Part shown: one piece after another, positions 26,803 to 32,375 of the stretch | How positions within the stretch are numbered: position 1 is the stretch's first letter | Layout of the letters: each line of letters starts with the position of its first letter | Assembly: GCA_009909035.1 (NCBI GenBank) | Contig: JAAAOB010000141.1 | Coordinates: 62,001 to 126,000, forward strand | DNA: 64,000 bases | Direction of reading: 5' to 3' | DNA from: Bacteroidota bacterium | GTDB lineage: Bacteria; Bacteroidota; Rhodothermia; Balneolales; Balneolaceae | Notes under the pieces: model-generated | Told to the model about the DNA's origin: nothing | Databases searched by the model: none | What the model saw: the letters and a program-made list of their open reading frames with translations, nothing else | Position numbers and translations under genes: made by a program

Positions 26803-28116
26803 TTACGGCAACTCAATACTGTTAAGCATCGTACGCAAACGTCCAATTCCCGGGGTTCCGGCTGAGCCGAGGTGGGAGCAATTTTCCATCACTTTTTCCG
26901 TGGTCAGCCCCTTTGTCAGCTTCGGGTTCTGAGCTAACTTTTTATAGGCCTCACGAAACGACAGGTTTTCGCGTTTTACGATCTCATATGCCGCTTCTGC
27001 CGCAAAAATATCTCCGCTGCAGGCATCGGCCAGCACCTGCCGGTTCGGTTGCAGGTGACTAACCAGCAGCGCCATCGCCTCGAGTGCGTCTCCTGTTTTT
27101 TGAACCGCATCCATAACCGGCTCCTTCGATAGCTGAAGATCCCGGTGATAGCCGCTGGTCAGGTTTGTCCCAAGCATCTGAAGCGTGGAGGCATGGCCCG
27201 TAACGACGGCGTGATGCGCCCGAACGAGCTCAGCAACATCCGGGTTCTTTTTTTGCGGCATGATAGAGGAGCCTGTGCAGACGACCGGGTGAAGCGTAAA
27301 GTAGGGTGTTGATTCACTGCTGAACTGGATCAGGTCAGACGCAAAACGGTTGGCAACAGACGTTAATGACGATAAAAACTGGACCAGCTGCAGCTCCGTA
27401 AAGCCCCTTGAAAGCTGGGCTGTTGTGGAGCAAACAAGTGGGGCTTCAAACCCGAGAGCCTCCGACTCGGCATCCCGGTCGATGTTAAAGGAGGTTCCAA
27501 ACCCGGCTGCACTGCCCAGCGGCGAGCGGTTGATCAGTGACCAAACACCGTTTGATGACATCAGCTGCAGGATCAGAAGCTCCGCAAAACCGCCCGACCA
27601 AAGAGCCACGCTGCTCATCATTGCTTTCCGCGTGTGGGTAAATCCCGGCATGGGGACCGCCTCATATCTATCCGCGAACTCCAGCAGCAGCTTTGCACAC
27701 CCTTTTGACTTAGCCAGAATCGACGAAAGCGCCTCCTTTTCGTACAACCTCAGGGCGGTTAATACCTGGTCGTTACGCGATCGGGCCGTGTGAATTTTTT
27801 TTCCGAGATCGCCCAGCTTCTGTACGAGATCATTCTCAATTGCCGTATGCATGTCTTCATCCTCCACGCTGATCGTAAACTCCCCTTTTTTCCACGCCTC
27901 GTGTATTTCCTCCAGGGCAGACGCAAGCCTTTTATATTCAGTTTGCGATACTACACCTGCATCCTGAAGCGCTTTAGCATGAACTCTGGAGCCCTTCAGA
28001 TCGTACGGTACCAGCTGCTGGTCCAGCGTGTAGTCGTTCCCAACTGTAAAAGCCTCCACCTTTTTTGCGGTTTCAGATTCAGTATCGGTCGTGCTCTTTT
28101 GCCAGAGTTTGGACAT
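26803..28116 (-). CDS. argH: Argininosuccinate lyase
   Basis: DEDMHTAIENDLVQKLGDLGKKIHTARSRNDQV; GSSIMPQKKNPDVAELVRA signature. Confidence 0.95.
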   Translation of the reverse strand: MSKLWQKSTTDTESETAKKVEAFTVGNDYTLDQQLVPYDLKGSRVHAKALQDAGVVSQTEYKRLASALEEIHEAWKKGEFTISVEDEDMHTAIENDLVQKLGDLGKKIHTARSRNDQVLTALRLYEKEALSSILAKSKGCAKLLLEFADRYEAVPMPGFTHTRKAMMSSVALWSGGFAELLILQLMSSNGVWSLINRSPLGSAAGFGTSFNIDRDAESEALGFEAPLVCSTTAQLSRGFTELQLVQFLSSLTSVANRFASDLIQFSSESTPYFTLHPVVCTGSSIMPQKKNPDVAELVRAHHAVVTGHASTLQMLGTNLTSGYHRDLQLSKEPVMDAVQKTGDALEAMALLVSHLQPNRQVLADACSGDIFAAEAAYEIVKRENLSFREAYKKLAQNPKLTKGLTTEKVMENCSHLGSAGTPGIGRLRTMLNSIELP

Positions 28117-28350
28117 GAGATTCAGCTTGTGAGTATGTTCAAAAAATTCTCCCTTTACGGGCTGTGTAAAAACTGTATTTCATAAAAAACGTACCGAAAC
28201 AAGGTAAGAATTCTGTCTCTTCAAACCCTGCCGGTCTTTTTGACCCTCCCTGTCCTCCGTACGAGACTTCGGAAGGCGGGCCCAAACTCCCATACGCGCT
28301 AACTTATTTATTATGAACGCAATGATTATTATTTCAGAATGTCTGGGACC

Positions 28351-28480
28351 GTCCAAAAAAGAGCGCGGTATTGCTGAAACGTTATTTATTTCGTCATTCC
28401 GGACCCCGATCCGGGATCTCCTAACCACATGTGTCGTCCCGATGCTTCGGAATGCGGGATGACGCTCTTTTTGGACAGCC
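28351..28480. repeat. Palindromic dispersed element between argG and argH
   Basis: Ends GTCCAAAAAAGAGCG / CGCTCTTTTTGGAC inverted; internal CGTCATTCCGGACCCCGATCCGGGATC and CGTCCCGATGCTTCGGAATGCGGGATGACG. Confidence 0.7.
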
Positions 28481-28523
28481 AAATTGTATCAAATACATCT
28501 TTTTTTGCCTTCTCACTTCTCAC

Positions 28524-29795
28524 TCACTGCACAACTTCCTTCTTCACCTCTTTTTTCAGCTGATAGGCCGTTTTCTGAGGCAGATTCCACAGCTCGATAA
28601 AGCCGGCCGAAGCATTTTGATTGAAGGATGCCGATTTATTAAAAGTCGCAAGGTTTTCGTCGAACAGCGAATAGGGCGATGAGAGCGATACCACCACACA
28701 GTTGCCTTTGTAGAGCCTCAGCGTCACCTCGCCGGTCACTTTTTTGTTTTGCTCGTTGATGAACGCCCGGATATTATCCATCACCGGTTCAAAATATTTG
28801 GCCCCGTAGATCAGGTACGCCCATTTTTGATCCATAAATCCCTTCAGCTCATTCTCTTCCCGGGTTGACACCAGCTGCTCCAGGTTTTTGTGGGCCTGGA
28901 TCAAAATCGTTGCGGCCGGATTTTCATACACGCCCCGCACCTTCAGGCCCACCACCCGGTCTTCAATCAGGTGAAACACGCCAACCGCATGCTTACCGCC
29001 GATTTCATTCAGCATCAGGATGAGGTCTTTCTTCTCATACTCGATACCGTTCAGCGACACCGGCTCCCCGTTTTCAAAGCCAATTTTCACCAGCTCTTCT
29101 TCATCAGGCGCCTGCTGCGGGGTGTTCGCCCACTTCAGGATATTTTCCAGCGGGGGAATCAGCTCCGGATTTTCTATCTCACCGCCTTCACCCGTATTGG
29201 CCCACATATTTTCATCATAGGAATAGGGACTTTTCCGGGTTTGATCTACCGGAATGCCATTGCTGATGGCGTATTCAATCTGTTCATCCCGCCCCATGCT
29301 CCACTCCCGCACCGGGGCAATGATCTTCAGGTCAGGATTCAGCGTGGTGATATAGCTTTCAAACCTCACCTGGTCGTTGCCTTTTCCGGTGCAGCCGTGT
29401 GCAATCACTTCGCATCCAAACTCCGCCGCAAACTGCACGGCCAGCTGGGAAATCATCACCCGGCCCAGCGGACAGCCAAGCGCATAGCCTCCCTGGTAGT
29501 CGGCGTTGGCTTTGACCGCTTCGGCACAGAGTTCGGCAAATTCCGATTTCGCATCATACACAATCGCATCTTTTGCTCCCAGCATCAGCGCTTTCTGCTT
29601 GATGGCATCCAGGTCGTCGGCCGTCTGGCCAATGTTCACCGTGAGCGCAATCACGTTACAATCATACTCTTCCTGGATCCATTTCAGCATCATGCTGGTA
29701 TCGAGCCCGCCCGAGTAGAGGAGCAGGCACGTGGTAAAGGATCCTTTTTCCGCTTCGTGTGACGCTACTTTTTTATATGTGGTTTCGTTTTTCAT
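28524..29795 (-). CDS. argG: Argininosuccinate synthase
   Basis: LLYSGGLDTSMMLKWIQEEY; HGCTGKGNDQVRFE; SPYSYDENMWANTGEGGE. Confidence 0.95.
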   Translation of the reverse strand: MKNETTYKKVASHEAEKGSFTTCLLLYSGGLDTSMMLKWIQEEYDCNVIALTVNIGQTADDLDAIKQKALMLGAKDAIVYDAKSEFAELCAEAVKANADYQGGYALGCPLGRVMISQLAVQFAAEFGCEVIAHGCTGKGNDQVRFESYITTLNPDLKIIAPVREWSMGRDEQIEYAISNGIPVDQTRKSPYSYDENMWANTGEGGEIENPELIPPLENILKWANTPQQAPDEEELVKIGFENGEPVSLNGIEYEKKDLILMLNEIGGKHAVGVFHLIEDRVVGLKVRGVYENPAATILIQAHKNLEQLVSTREENELKGFMDQKWAYLIYGAKYFEPVMDNIRAFINEQNKKVTGEVTLRLYKGNCVVVSLSSPYSLFDENLATFNKSASFNQNASAGFIELWNLPQKTAYQLKKEVKKEVVQ

Positions 29796-29838: not shown

Positions 29839-30002
29839 GTCCCCCTTAGAAGGGGGGATATTTGAACACTTATAGCGTGCAAATTGGGGGGATGACTTTC
29901 GAAGCGTTGATTTGTTGAGCGAATTAGTGAAACTTTTAGCCCATACTCATCATCCCCCTCTGTCCGCTAATTAGCGGACTTCCTCCTCCTTCAAAGGGGG
30001 AC
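29839..30002. repeat. MITE-like palindromic element between argF and argG
   Basis: Terminal inverted repeats GTCCCCCTTAGAAGGGGGGAT / GTCCCCCTTTGAAGGAGGAGG, with a second inner inverted pair (ATTGGGGGGATGAC / GAGGGGGATGATG). Confidence 0.75.
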
Positions 30003-30960
30003 TATAAACTTCATTCAAATTTAAATCTATAACCTCACTTGAAAGCAGCCCTGCAAACACGCCTTTTGATACAACCATACGGTTTTCGGCTTGCTGGTAG
30101 ACCCACGAATTCTCGTGATCGATGACCTCATCGGTCACCTCTACGCCGCGGTGCGCCGGCAGGCAGTGCATAAAGCCCGCCCCGGGATTCGCTTTCGAAA
30201 ACAGATCTATGTTGACCTGGTACGGTTTGAAGTGCTTGATCTTTTCATCATACAGATGCTCTTCACCCATCGAAATAAACGTGTCGGTGTAAACCGCATC
30301 GGCATAGGGTACTGCCTCTGATGGATCGGGAAACGTTGTAAATGTTCCGTTATACTGTACTGCCAGAAGGGCGAAATACCGGAGCTGATCATCCGACCAG
30401 CCGTAGGACTCCGGCCCTGAGAAATGAACCGTATGGCCAAATTTCAACAGAATCTCGATCAGTGAAAACGCAACATTATTGGCATCGCCCACAAATGCTA
30501 CGGTAAGTTCACTGTCCGCCCCGTACTGTTGCTGCAGGGTATAGAGATCGGCGAGCGCCTGCATTGGGTGATGCTTATCGCACAGCGCGTTGATGATTGG
30601 AATTGAGCTGTATTCCGCCATATTCTTCAGCGTTTGATGGGTGTAGACCCTGGCAAAAACCGCATCACACCATAGAGATACGTTTTTCATGGCATCTTTC
30701 AGCGATTCCCGGCTGGTAAAGGGAATGGCCTTACCGCTGCTCAGTAAAATGTCGGCATCGATATGGATGACGTTACCGCCCAGATGATTGATGCCAGCCT
30801 CGGTGCCTACCTTGGTTCGCAGGGATGGCTTTTCGAAAACAAAGGCGATATTTTTGCCTTTCAGCTCGTTCCCTGGATGGAGGTGAAGTTCTGTACTGTA
30901 ATCCAGGAGGGTTTGAAGCTGCTCAGGCTCGTAGTCTGAAATCGTTAAAAAATCTGACAT
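29971..30960 (-). CDS. argF: Ornithine carbamoyltransferase family
   Basis: FEKPSLRTKVGTEAGINHLGG, HHPMQALADLYTL, FMHCLPAHRGVEV. Confidence 0.88.
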   Translation of the reverse strand: MSDFLTISDYEPEQLQTLLDYSTELHLHPGNELKGKNIAFVFEKPSLRTKVGTEAGINHLGGNVIHIDADILLSSGKAIPFTSRESLKDAMKNVSLWCDAVFARVYTHQTLKNMAEYSSIPIINALCDKHHPMQALADLYTLQQQYGADSELTVAFVGDANNVAFSLIEILLKFGHTVHFSGPESYGWSDDQLRYFALLAVQYNGTFTTFPDPSEAVPYADAVYTDTFISMGEEHLYDEKIKHFKPYQVNIDLFSKANPGAGFMHCLPAHRGVEVTDEVIDHENSWVYQQAENRMVVSKGVFAGLLSSEVIDLNLNEVYSPPLKEEEVR

Positions 30961-31023
30961 AATATTGTATTGTATGGTGAATTTTGAATAAAAATGGATG
31001 GTCCCAAAGGATGCCTTTGGCGC

Positions 31024-31063
31024 AAAAAAAAAACGCCTGCTTAAAGTGAATTAAGCAGGCGTT
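31024..31063 (-). terminator. Attenuator terminator of the argFGH leader
   Basis: On -: AACGCCTGCTTAA-TTCACT-TTAAGCAGGCGTT (13-bp perfect stem) followed by a long T run; lies between the leader ORF and the argF ATG. Confidence 0.92.
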
Positions 31064-31091
31064 GTGAAAATGGTTGGATTACACAGCTATT

Positions 31092-31157
31092 TCACACGCC
31101 TGAGCGGCGGCGACGGCGGAAAGAAAAGAGAGCAATGCTGTGTGTTTCAAAATTCAT
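31092..31157 (-). CDS. argL: Arginine leader peptide (attenuator) of argFGH
   Basis: ATG AAT TTT GAA ACA CAC AGC ATT GCT CTC TTT TCT TTC CGC CGT CGC CGC CGC TCA GGC GTG TGA = MNFETHSIALFSFRRRRRSGV*. Followed 28 nt later by a terminator. Confidence 0.88.
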   Translation of the reverse strand: MNFETHSIALFSFRRRRRSGV

Positions 31158-31222
31158 GTCAATAAACTCTGATTATTGTATTTAAAATCCAAATAAATTT
31201 TTTCGTTACCGGGATTATTTTT

Positions 31223-31290
31223 CTTTTGCAGGATCACCCCCTGGACTCTCGCAGAGTTACGCGGATGAGATCGCTGAGTTTCGCTGATGA
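31223..31290. repeat. Dispersed repeat, CTGCG-type (copy)
   Basis: CTTTTGCAGGATCACCCCCTGGACTCTCGCAGAGTTACGCGGATGAGATCGCTGAGTTTCGCTGATGA, nearly identical to 32003-32070. Confidence 0.75.
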
Positions 31291-31311
31291 TAAGCCAGCG
31301 CCAGCGGGGCT

Positions 31312-31480
31312 GGTTTCATCCCTGAAAAAGTGACCACCATTCATGGTATCTAATACATCCGGGCTCAATTAAAATTAGCCCCGAAGCGGGCGTAAGCATC
31401 AGCACAGGGCATCGCCCTGTGTAGAATGCGGCAGTTTCCGATATCAGCCCTGAAAGGGCGAAAGCCCGTTCATCTTCCTG
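31312..31480. repeat. GCCCTGAAAGGGCGAAAG-type dispersed repeat block (copy 1)
   Basis: TAGCCCCGAAGCGGGCGTAAGCATCAGCACAGGGCATCGCCCTGTGTAGAATGCGGCAGTTT...CAGCCCTGAAAGGGCGAAAGCCCGTTCATC. Confidence 0.8.
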
Positions 31481-31912
31481 TGTGTCCTGCACCCTGTTCT
31501 GGGCTAACGATATGGTATAGGCCCATTGATCATAGGCCGATGCCAATGCCATCGCCCTTTAAGGGCCCACTTTGCTAACGTTTACGAAAGTTGAGTTAGA
31601 AAGAGAGCGCCATAGGCGCGACATGTCCGTAGCCCCTGGTCAGCGCAAAGCGGTGGCCAGGGGTTACTAAACACGCACAACAAAAGAGAGCGCCGTAGGT
31701 GCGAAATATATGTAGCCCTGCAAGGCGAGCCACCAACCATACCACACAATCTCCTGTATTGAAGTTGGCAGATCCTTCCCGCAAAGTTCCGGGATTGAAT
31801 TTAAGATTCACATTATGTCGCGCCGATGGCGCTTCTTTTGATGTGGGCTCCTGCTATACCCAACGGACATGCTGCGCATTCCCATTGGGCTACGGACATA
31901 CCGCCCCTGAAC

Positions 31913-32070
31913 GGGGCTGGTTTATACCCAAAAAAAGTGACCACCATTCATTGAATCGAATCATCCGGGCTCAAATAAAATTAGTCCCAAAGCGGACGTA
32001 AGCTTTTGCAGGATTCCCCCTGGATTCTCGCAGAGTTCCGCGGATGAAATCGCTTATTTTCGCTGAGAAT
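31913..32070. repeat. Repeat block copy 2 (partial) fused to a CTGCG-type repeat
   Basis: GGGGCTGGTTTATACCCAAAAAAAGTGACCACCATTCATTGAATCGAATCATCCGGGCTC, then CTTTTGCAGGATTCCCCCTGGATTCTCGCAGAGTTCCGCGG. Confidence 0.75.
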
Positions 32071-32234
32071 AACCAAGCTCCATCGGTGCGACATATCCGT
32101 AGTCCGAGGCCGCTGCAACGCGGTAGGCCTGGTTTAAAACAAGAGCATTGGCTCAGTATCCGAAAAATTGAACATGTCGTTTCTACAAATGGTAGCTGAA
32201 TGCCCATCCTTTTAATTGATTCATTACTCATCTT

Positions 32235-32375
32235 ATGAGGTAATCCGGACTCAAAAAGTTTAGCCCCGAAGCGGGCGTAAGCACCAGCACAGGGCATCGC
32301 CCTGTGTGGAAGGCGGCAGTTTTCTTCATCAGCCCTGAAAGGGCGAAAGCCCGTTCATCATTCCTGTGGGGCCAC
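32235..32375. repeat. Repeat block copy 3
   Basis: TAATCCGGACTCAAAAAGTTTAGCCCCGAAGCGGGCGTAAGCACCAGCACAGGGCATCGCCCTGTGTGGAAGGCGGCAGTTTTCTTCATCAGCCCTGAAAGGGCGAAAGCCCGTTCATC. Confidence 0.8.

Follow-up and report, generated by a model that had tools for sequence, protein, structure and literature searches.

Comparison of a 64,000-nt stretch of a Balneolaceae genome (hereafter, the window) with its relatives makes it highly probable that the argFGH operon is controlled by an arginine-specific, ribosome-mediated transcription attenuator of the trp/his type, and argFGH would very probably be transcribed only under arginine shortage. The parts of this putative switch (Table 1), their conservation and co-variation, their footprint-sized spacing and (by profile search) the absence of the ArgR repressor are read from sequence, and from these we infer that the leader ORF is translated, that ribosomes stall on it, which way the operon responds and where transcription starts.

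Table 1. Elements of the proposed arginine attenuator and the genes downstream of it (window positions; all on the minus strand, with upstream and downstream set by the orientation of argF)
Feature	Position	Strand	Support
Probable promoter region with a TTTG-type element, 35 nt upstream of leader AUG	31158..31193	(-)	TTG[CG] in relatives
Leader peptide ORF, MNFETHSIALFSFRRRRRSGV*	31092..31157	(-)	Arg-run ORF in 33/33 homologous loci
Segment 1, ACACAGC, outer helix able to protect segment 2	31137..31143	(-)	Family-wide matched pairing
Putative sensor, five Arg codons (CGC CGT CGC CGC CGC)	31104..31118	(-)
Segment 2, antiterminator 5' strand, CAGGCGUGUGAAA	31090..31102	(-)	Begins 16 nt past first Arg codon base
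Segment 1 partner, GCUGUGU, just 3' of leader stop codon	31081..31087	(-)
Segment 3, antiterminator 3' strand, UUUCACAACGCCUG, overlapping terminator 5' arm	31056..31069	(-)
Intrinsic terminator hairpin (segments 3:4), 13 bp	31032..31063	(-)
Terminator U tract, 10 T	31024..31033	(-)
argF, ornithine carbamoyltransferase, first gene under the proposed control	29971..30960	(-)	TIGR00658, 300.4 bits, above cut-off
argG, argininosuccinate synthase	28524..29795	(-)	TIGR00032, 456 bits
argH, argininosuccinate lyase	26803..28116	(-)	TIGR00838, 286.7 bits, above cut-off

A preliminary description of this DNA had claimed a 21-aa ORF with five consecutive Arg codons, a 13-bp hairpin 28 nt past it and about 64 nt before argF, and two complementary pairs of segments. 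The ORF lies where it had been placed, its Arg codons starting at 31118; the hairpin (AACGCCTGCTTAA-TTCACT-TTAAGCAGGCGTT, 31063-31032) does follow the leader stop after a 28-nt gap, and we measured 63 nt from the end of its U run (31024) to the argF ATG (30960). CAGGCGT (31102-31096) is indeed complementary to ACGCCTG (31062-31056), and the resulting antiterminator is longer than had been claimed: CAGGCG+TGTGAAA (31102-31090) can pair with TTTCACA+CGCCTG (31069-31056) over 13 pairs with one bulged A, at a predicted -19.0 kcal/mol vs. -20.9 kcal/mol for the terminator. The second complementarity, of ACACAGC (31143-31137) to GCTGTGT (31087-31081), is likewise present, and the predicted fold of the leader reaches -48.2 kcal/mol vs. 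-30.5 kcal/mol for dinucleotide shuffles (z = -5.3). The identities proposed for argF (OTC), argG and argH are borne out by the TIGR profile scores. In the surroundings of the leader, the intergenic stretch between it and the next gene (31237-32359) is rich in repeats (direct repeats 36-100 nt long and 73-93% identical) and in short GC-rich hairpins. The 407-nt gap between argG and argH (28117-28523) holds no obvious gene and carries apparently inverted motifs of the GTCATTCCG/CGGAATGAC type, a possible miniature repeat insertion.

Conservation of this arrangement was assessed on ArgF orthologues gathered by protein identity alone; removal of duplicates and of loci cut at a contig end left 33 distinct loci, comprising the window, its close relatives, several genera of the family and other families of the order (Balneolaceae, Balneolia and Rhodohalobacter among the names), with most of the compared genomes being metagenome-assembled and gapped. 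Upstream of argF, each of the 33 Balneolia loci carries an ORF of 19-36 codons (mostly 20-21) that contains an Arg run or an Arg-rich stretch, and an intrinsic terminator lies between this ORF and argF. The terminator is canonical in each of them, with a U run of at least 6 that ends within approximately 90 nt of the leader stop, 23-146 nt before argF. Within the Arg run, codon differences amount to 0.40 per site at third positions vs. 0.05-0.07 at positions 1 and 2; thus the third positions vary, the first two hardly do, and the amino acid is kept. Two leaders (L013, L019) have four CGG codons where CGC/CGT is usual (CGC CGT CGC CGC to CGG CGG CGG CGG), and in L062 the Arg codons are reduced to RR..R. 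Chance is excluded as the source of this arrangement of ORF and terminator. Some more distant ArgF relatives were considered and set aside: those of candidate phyla (L054, L055, L057, L063-L065) have no such leader, and in at least some of them (L063, L065) the DNA upstream of argF resembles the end of argG, so that argF is apparently not the first gene there. A Cytophagaceae genome (L066, CP030886.1, metagenome-assembled, 49% ArgF identity) has an Arg-rich ORF, MTNSYNNIVNIRRSYRRYRRS, upstream of its distant argF and no clear terminator, and was left out of the count.

Of the 33 leaders, 27 have an upstream TTG[CG] element, which may be the Bacteroidota -33 promoter element, at 35 to 37 nt from the leader AUG. 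If this reading of the element is right, its position suggests a transcription start only a few nucleotides away from the AUG and a nearly leaderless RNA.

An antiterminator is predicted alongside the terminator in all 33 leaders, at varying strength. Compared with dinucleotide shuffles of the same stretch, it is more stable than the shuffle average in 32 of 33 leaders, and in most of them it comes near the terminator in energy; the margin over shuffles is slight in L015-L017, L036 and a few others, and L015, L016 and L017 have antiterminators that are weak or do not exceed the shuffles. Pairing of segment 2 with its own segment 3 (mean -17.4 kcal/mol) is stronger than with those of other leaders (-14.1 kcal/mol), a difference matched in 0 of 2000 permutations, vs. 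52 of 2000 for a much weaker reversed-segment control. For the outer 1:2 helix, matched pairing also beats mismatched pairing across the family (0 of 2000 permutations). Such permutations leave the kinship between leaders in, and, taken alone, they support compensatory change rather than prove it. Among the paired variants are CAGGCG:CGCCUG, GGGC:GCCC, CGGGUGUGA:UUACACCCG and CGGGCAAUG:CAUUGCCCG. Applied to a MAFFT alignment, RNAalifold detected the terminator and the hairpin at the Arg codons with little covariation score, which is explained by the segments sliding against each other. The distance from the first Arg codon to segment 2 is nearly constant (16 nt, interquartile range 15-17, in the 33 argF leaders) and is about one ribosome footprint, and in nearly all leaders the stop codon falls 3-13 nt past the point where segment 2 begins. 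Thus, the look at close relatives proposed in the preliminary description found the Arg run, terminator, antiterminator and spacing all kept, with the paired segments changing together across the order.

Another reading is that the ORF lies only by chance ahead of a plain terminator, which would shield argF from transcription arriving from upstream; a terminator alone would insulate, and the upstream intergenic region is long and repeat-rich. The conservation in 33 of 33 loci, the synonymous substitution in the Arg run, the co-variation of segments 2 and 3, the fixed spacing and an independent second class of leaders (described below) speak against this explanation, to which we assign a practically negligible probability.

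As regards the attenuator, the sequence of events would be the following. The ribosome would trail RNA polymerase along the leader and, when charged Arg-tRNA is scarce, would stall with its A site at one of the first two Arg codons; the footprint of the stalled ribosome would end just before segment 2, leaving segments 2 and 3 to pair as the antiterminator, so that the terminator would not form in time and argFGH would be transcribed. With plentiful Arg-tRNA, the ribosome would reach the stop codon and cover segment 2, segments 3 and 4 would pair, and transcription would end before argF.

These states were modeled with a ribosome covering approximately 15 nt on each side of the P-site codon (an assumed footprint of E. 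coli size), and the calculation on nascent RNA was stopped before segment 4, with P(2:3) denoting the probability of segment 2 pairing with the terminator 5' arm. In the nascent argF leaders, mean P(2:3) is 0.79 (median 0.90) with the ribosome at the first Arg codon, 0.01 with the ribosome at the stop codon and 0.25 with no ribosome, as compared to 0.35, 0.06 and 0.19, respectively, for leaders with shuffled spacers. Switch-like behavior is predicted for 82% of the real leaders vs. 20% of those with shuffled spacers. The same model applied to E. coli trpL (with a slightly wider partner region) gives 0.99 at the equivalent stall, 0.15 at the stop and 0.09 without a ribosome. Spacing and modeled states therefore agree with the earlier proposal that a stall at the first Arg codons would free CAGGCGU and a ribosome at the stop would cover it. 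The protective hairpin suggested along with it fares less evenly: it covaries across the family, but for the window leader the nascent-RNA calculation gives the antiterminator a probability of 0.97 with no ribosome present, and hence basal termination without translation may be weak and untranslated transcripts of this leader may read through. In equilibrium folding of the completed leader, the terminator is more stable in every ribosome state, which means that the switch must act kinetically on nascent RNA. Attenuation of trp is likewise generally held to be kinetic and to take place on nascent RNA.

A second class of leaders is found in clusters that begin with argG. Of 9 argG loci from other families of the order, 8 are preceded by an Arg-rich leader and a terminator, and the leader sequence (e.g., MLIQITYPLNDSNRRRRRIRRRSPDGTCGDCV) differs from the argF type; in other families of the class, Arg-rich leaders occur at 11 of 13 loci, two of the 11 (L233, L234) being weak and failing a stricter threshold. 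The pattern of leader plus terminator arose in 0 of 210 shuffled upstream regions of argG-first loci, and a switch is predicted for the argG leaders as well (median P of 1.00 at the first Arg codon and 0.24 at the stop). The exception among the nine (L181, in genome G052) keeps a terminator of the argG-leader type behind an ORF, MQINTLHTNLVKGSAIARTNPGKVMSGI, without an Arg run, possibly a decayed or retargeted leader. A potential counterexample, G347, was discounted because its contig stops shortly before argG. In argG-first Balneolaceae clusters lying behind an acetyltransferase-like gene, the surroundings of argG showed no Arg leader.

The two classes bear on the question of what the ribosome would be sensing. 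In one alternative, the nascent peptide together with free arginine would arrest the ribosome much as TnaC or the fungal arginine attenuator peptide does, with the stall controlling the hairpins, and some residues outside the Arg run do recur (MNF/MKF..H..., RRRRPxGV). Much of this recurring coding sequence serves RNA pairing (CACAC:GUGUG; CCC:GGG), however, and outside the Arg run the leaders otherwise diverge almost completely (e.g., MIEQVRIALNERRRRPKGRNT and MTTMTTKNDILSSLRNRRRPC), with the argG leaders forming a class unrelated to them in sequence; a fungal-type peptide needs a conserved peptide outside the Arg codons, which these leaders lack. Moreover, a stall at the Arg run under high arginine would let transcription run on into argF while arginine is in good supply, the opposite of what a biosynthetic operon calls for. 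On these grounds, an arrest peptide is very unlikely.

The Arg run might instead slow ribosomes under stress through codon rarity or the positive charge of the chain, with the operon reading translation rate rather than arginine. Basic runs can slow ribosomes, and CGG (24 occurrences) exceeds CGC (14) and CGT (12) in four long genes of the window, whose leader uses the latter two. Against such a general sensor, L013, L019, L056 and L062 use CGG, the commonest of these codons in the same window genes, rather than CGC/CGT, no Lys runs stand in place of Arg, the leader is found at arginine genes in every argF locus examined, and the different leader of argG-first clusters again carries Arg codons; we consider a sensor of this kind highly improbable.

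The proposed arginine-specific attenuator stands in a genomic context in which the regulator that the preliminary description had named as usual for arginine is missing, consistent with that description: the ArgR profile (PF01316) matched none of 61 relatives, including the genome of the window (89% complete), with matches in 9 of 14 control genomes as a positive control. Across the phylum, PF01316 matches were obtained in 141 of 398 genomes, adjoining argG in many of them, and the sole match inside the class was a weak, repeated one in G088. The scan for Arg leaders detected one at 0 of 30 argG loci of ArgR-bearing lineages. Leaders and ArgR are complementary in the phylum, ArgR adjoining argG in many leader-less genomes. 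Most other ArgR-less lineages of the phylum also showed no Arg leader near argG, and the leader is therefore not the only alternative to ArgR. No convincing Arg leader was found at the argC loci scanned, so that only part of the arginine pathway would be controlled by the attenuator. A T-box covariance model gave no match in 30700-31700 even at E values up to 5, and an Rfam scan of the leader region returned no family at gathering score (sub-threshold chance matches only).

An RNA model (R1) run over the 398 genomes of the phylum gave strong matches at Arg leaders only. The weak matches proved to be putative His leaders (hisG), a putative Ile/Val/Leu-rich leader (ilvD) and chance terminators. 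Possible His-rich leaders with terminators precede hisG at L126 and L127 and, within Balneolales, at L279, L283, L288, L290, L299 and L300, and a possible Ile/Val/Leu-rich leader with a terminator precedes ilvD at L122, which suggests that leader-peptide attenuation may serve other amino acids in Bacteroidota and Balneolales too. In G276, a genome of the same family that is 97% complete, there is a clear leader of type I, MKFYGNILLMHTRRRRCLLGM, whose Arg codons and terminator (-20.0 kcal/mol) are intact and which no arg gene follows (L120 / L304, G276:C17). In this genome argF is absent genome-wide, the nearest sequence being a paralogous carbamoyltransferase at 31% identity, and argG is absent at E values of 1e-20 or better. 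The orphan leader is apparently what remains of a lost operon and, as such, would present one of these elements after the loss of its operon.

The closest known systems are E. coli trpL and the trp, his, leu, thr and phe attenuators of Proteobacteria, with which the leaders described here share a short ORF with a run of codons for the regulated amino acid, antiterminator and terminator pairings with a U tract, a possible protective pairing, and a biosynthetic operon that follows; for trpL, a nascent-RNA calculation of this kind also yields the same switch. They differ in the amino acid (arginine), in their occurrence in a class-level Bacteroidota lineage and in an AUG that apparently lies very near the transcription start. 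Sequence similarity between the two is not expected. A trp-type attenuator ahead of an arg operon did not turn up in the open-access literature, which leaves most subscription journals outside and an earlier description possible. For Flavobacterium psychrophilum, attenuation of amino-acid operons by leader peptides has been mentioned in general terms (PMC9723704), and arginine T-boxes (PMC1262725) represent, along with ArgR, other solutions to arginine control, in contrast to the present region and relatives, where neither was detected.

Leader peptides with a link to arginine have been described elsewhere. In Staphylococcus aureus, Arg codons of the rbfL leader ORF pause ribosomes at low arginine (PMC13009471), but the outcome is translational control of a biofilm regulator by occlusion of the ribosome-binding site, with the opposite sign and no terminator. 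For Pseudomonas aeruginosa carAB, attenuation has been proposed from a leader peptide preceding this arginine-feeding gene (cited in PMC4997734); carAB feeds pyrimidines as well and is not an arg operon, and that paper describes the attenuation as pyrimidine control, with arginine acting at the transcriptional level. In Salmonella, Arg codons of an ORF upstream of speF (orf34, or speFL) sense arginine via ribosome pausing (PMC6386406). Unlike the leaders studied here, orf34 has two Arg codons, targets ornithine decarboxylase and acts via Rho, RNase G and masking of the ribosome-binding site, with no intrinsic terminator before arginine biosynthesis genes. This precedent speaks in favor of mixed control, i.e., a leader ORF that mainly guards against Rho or alters mRNA stability or argF translation, with the hairpin switch being secondary. 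The canonical terminator with its U run in all 33 leaders argues otherwise, and when the leaders were compared for ORF and terminator, no conserved structure that would mask the start of argF stood out; we regard mixed control as extremely improbable.

Overall, the comparative evidence gives good support to an arginine-specific addition to the ribosome-mediated attenuators, arginine having been missing so far, within the literature searched, among the amino acids with a trp-type attenuator on their own biosynthetic operon. More tentatively, and with a probability that we place a little below even, leader-peptide attenuators may have replaced ArgR across the class by at least two recruitments (to argF of argFGH and to argG of argG-first clusters), acting on nearly leaderless transcripts; if so, the sensing ribosome would load almost as soon as the RNA leaves the polymerase. 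The near-constant 16-nt spacing and the unrelated second class of leaders provide ready test constructs, and the complementary distribution of ArgR and leaders offers a clean case for studying the mutual replacement of a repressor and an RNA switch.
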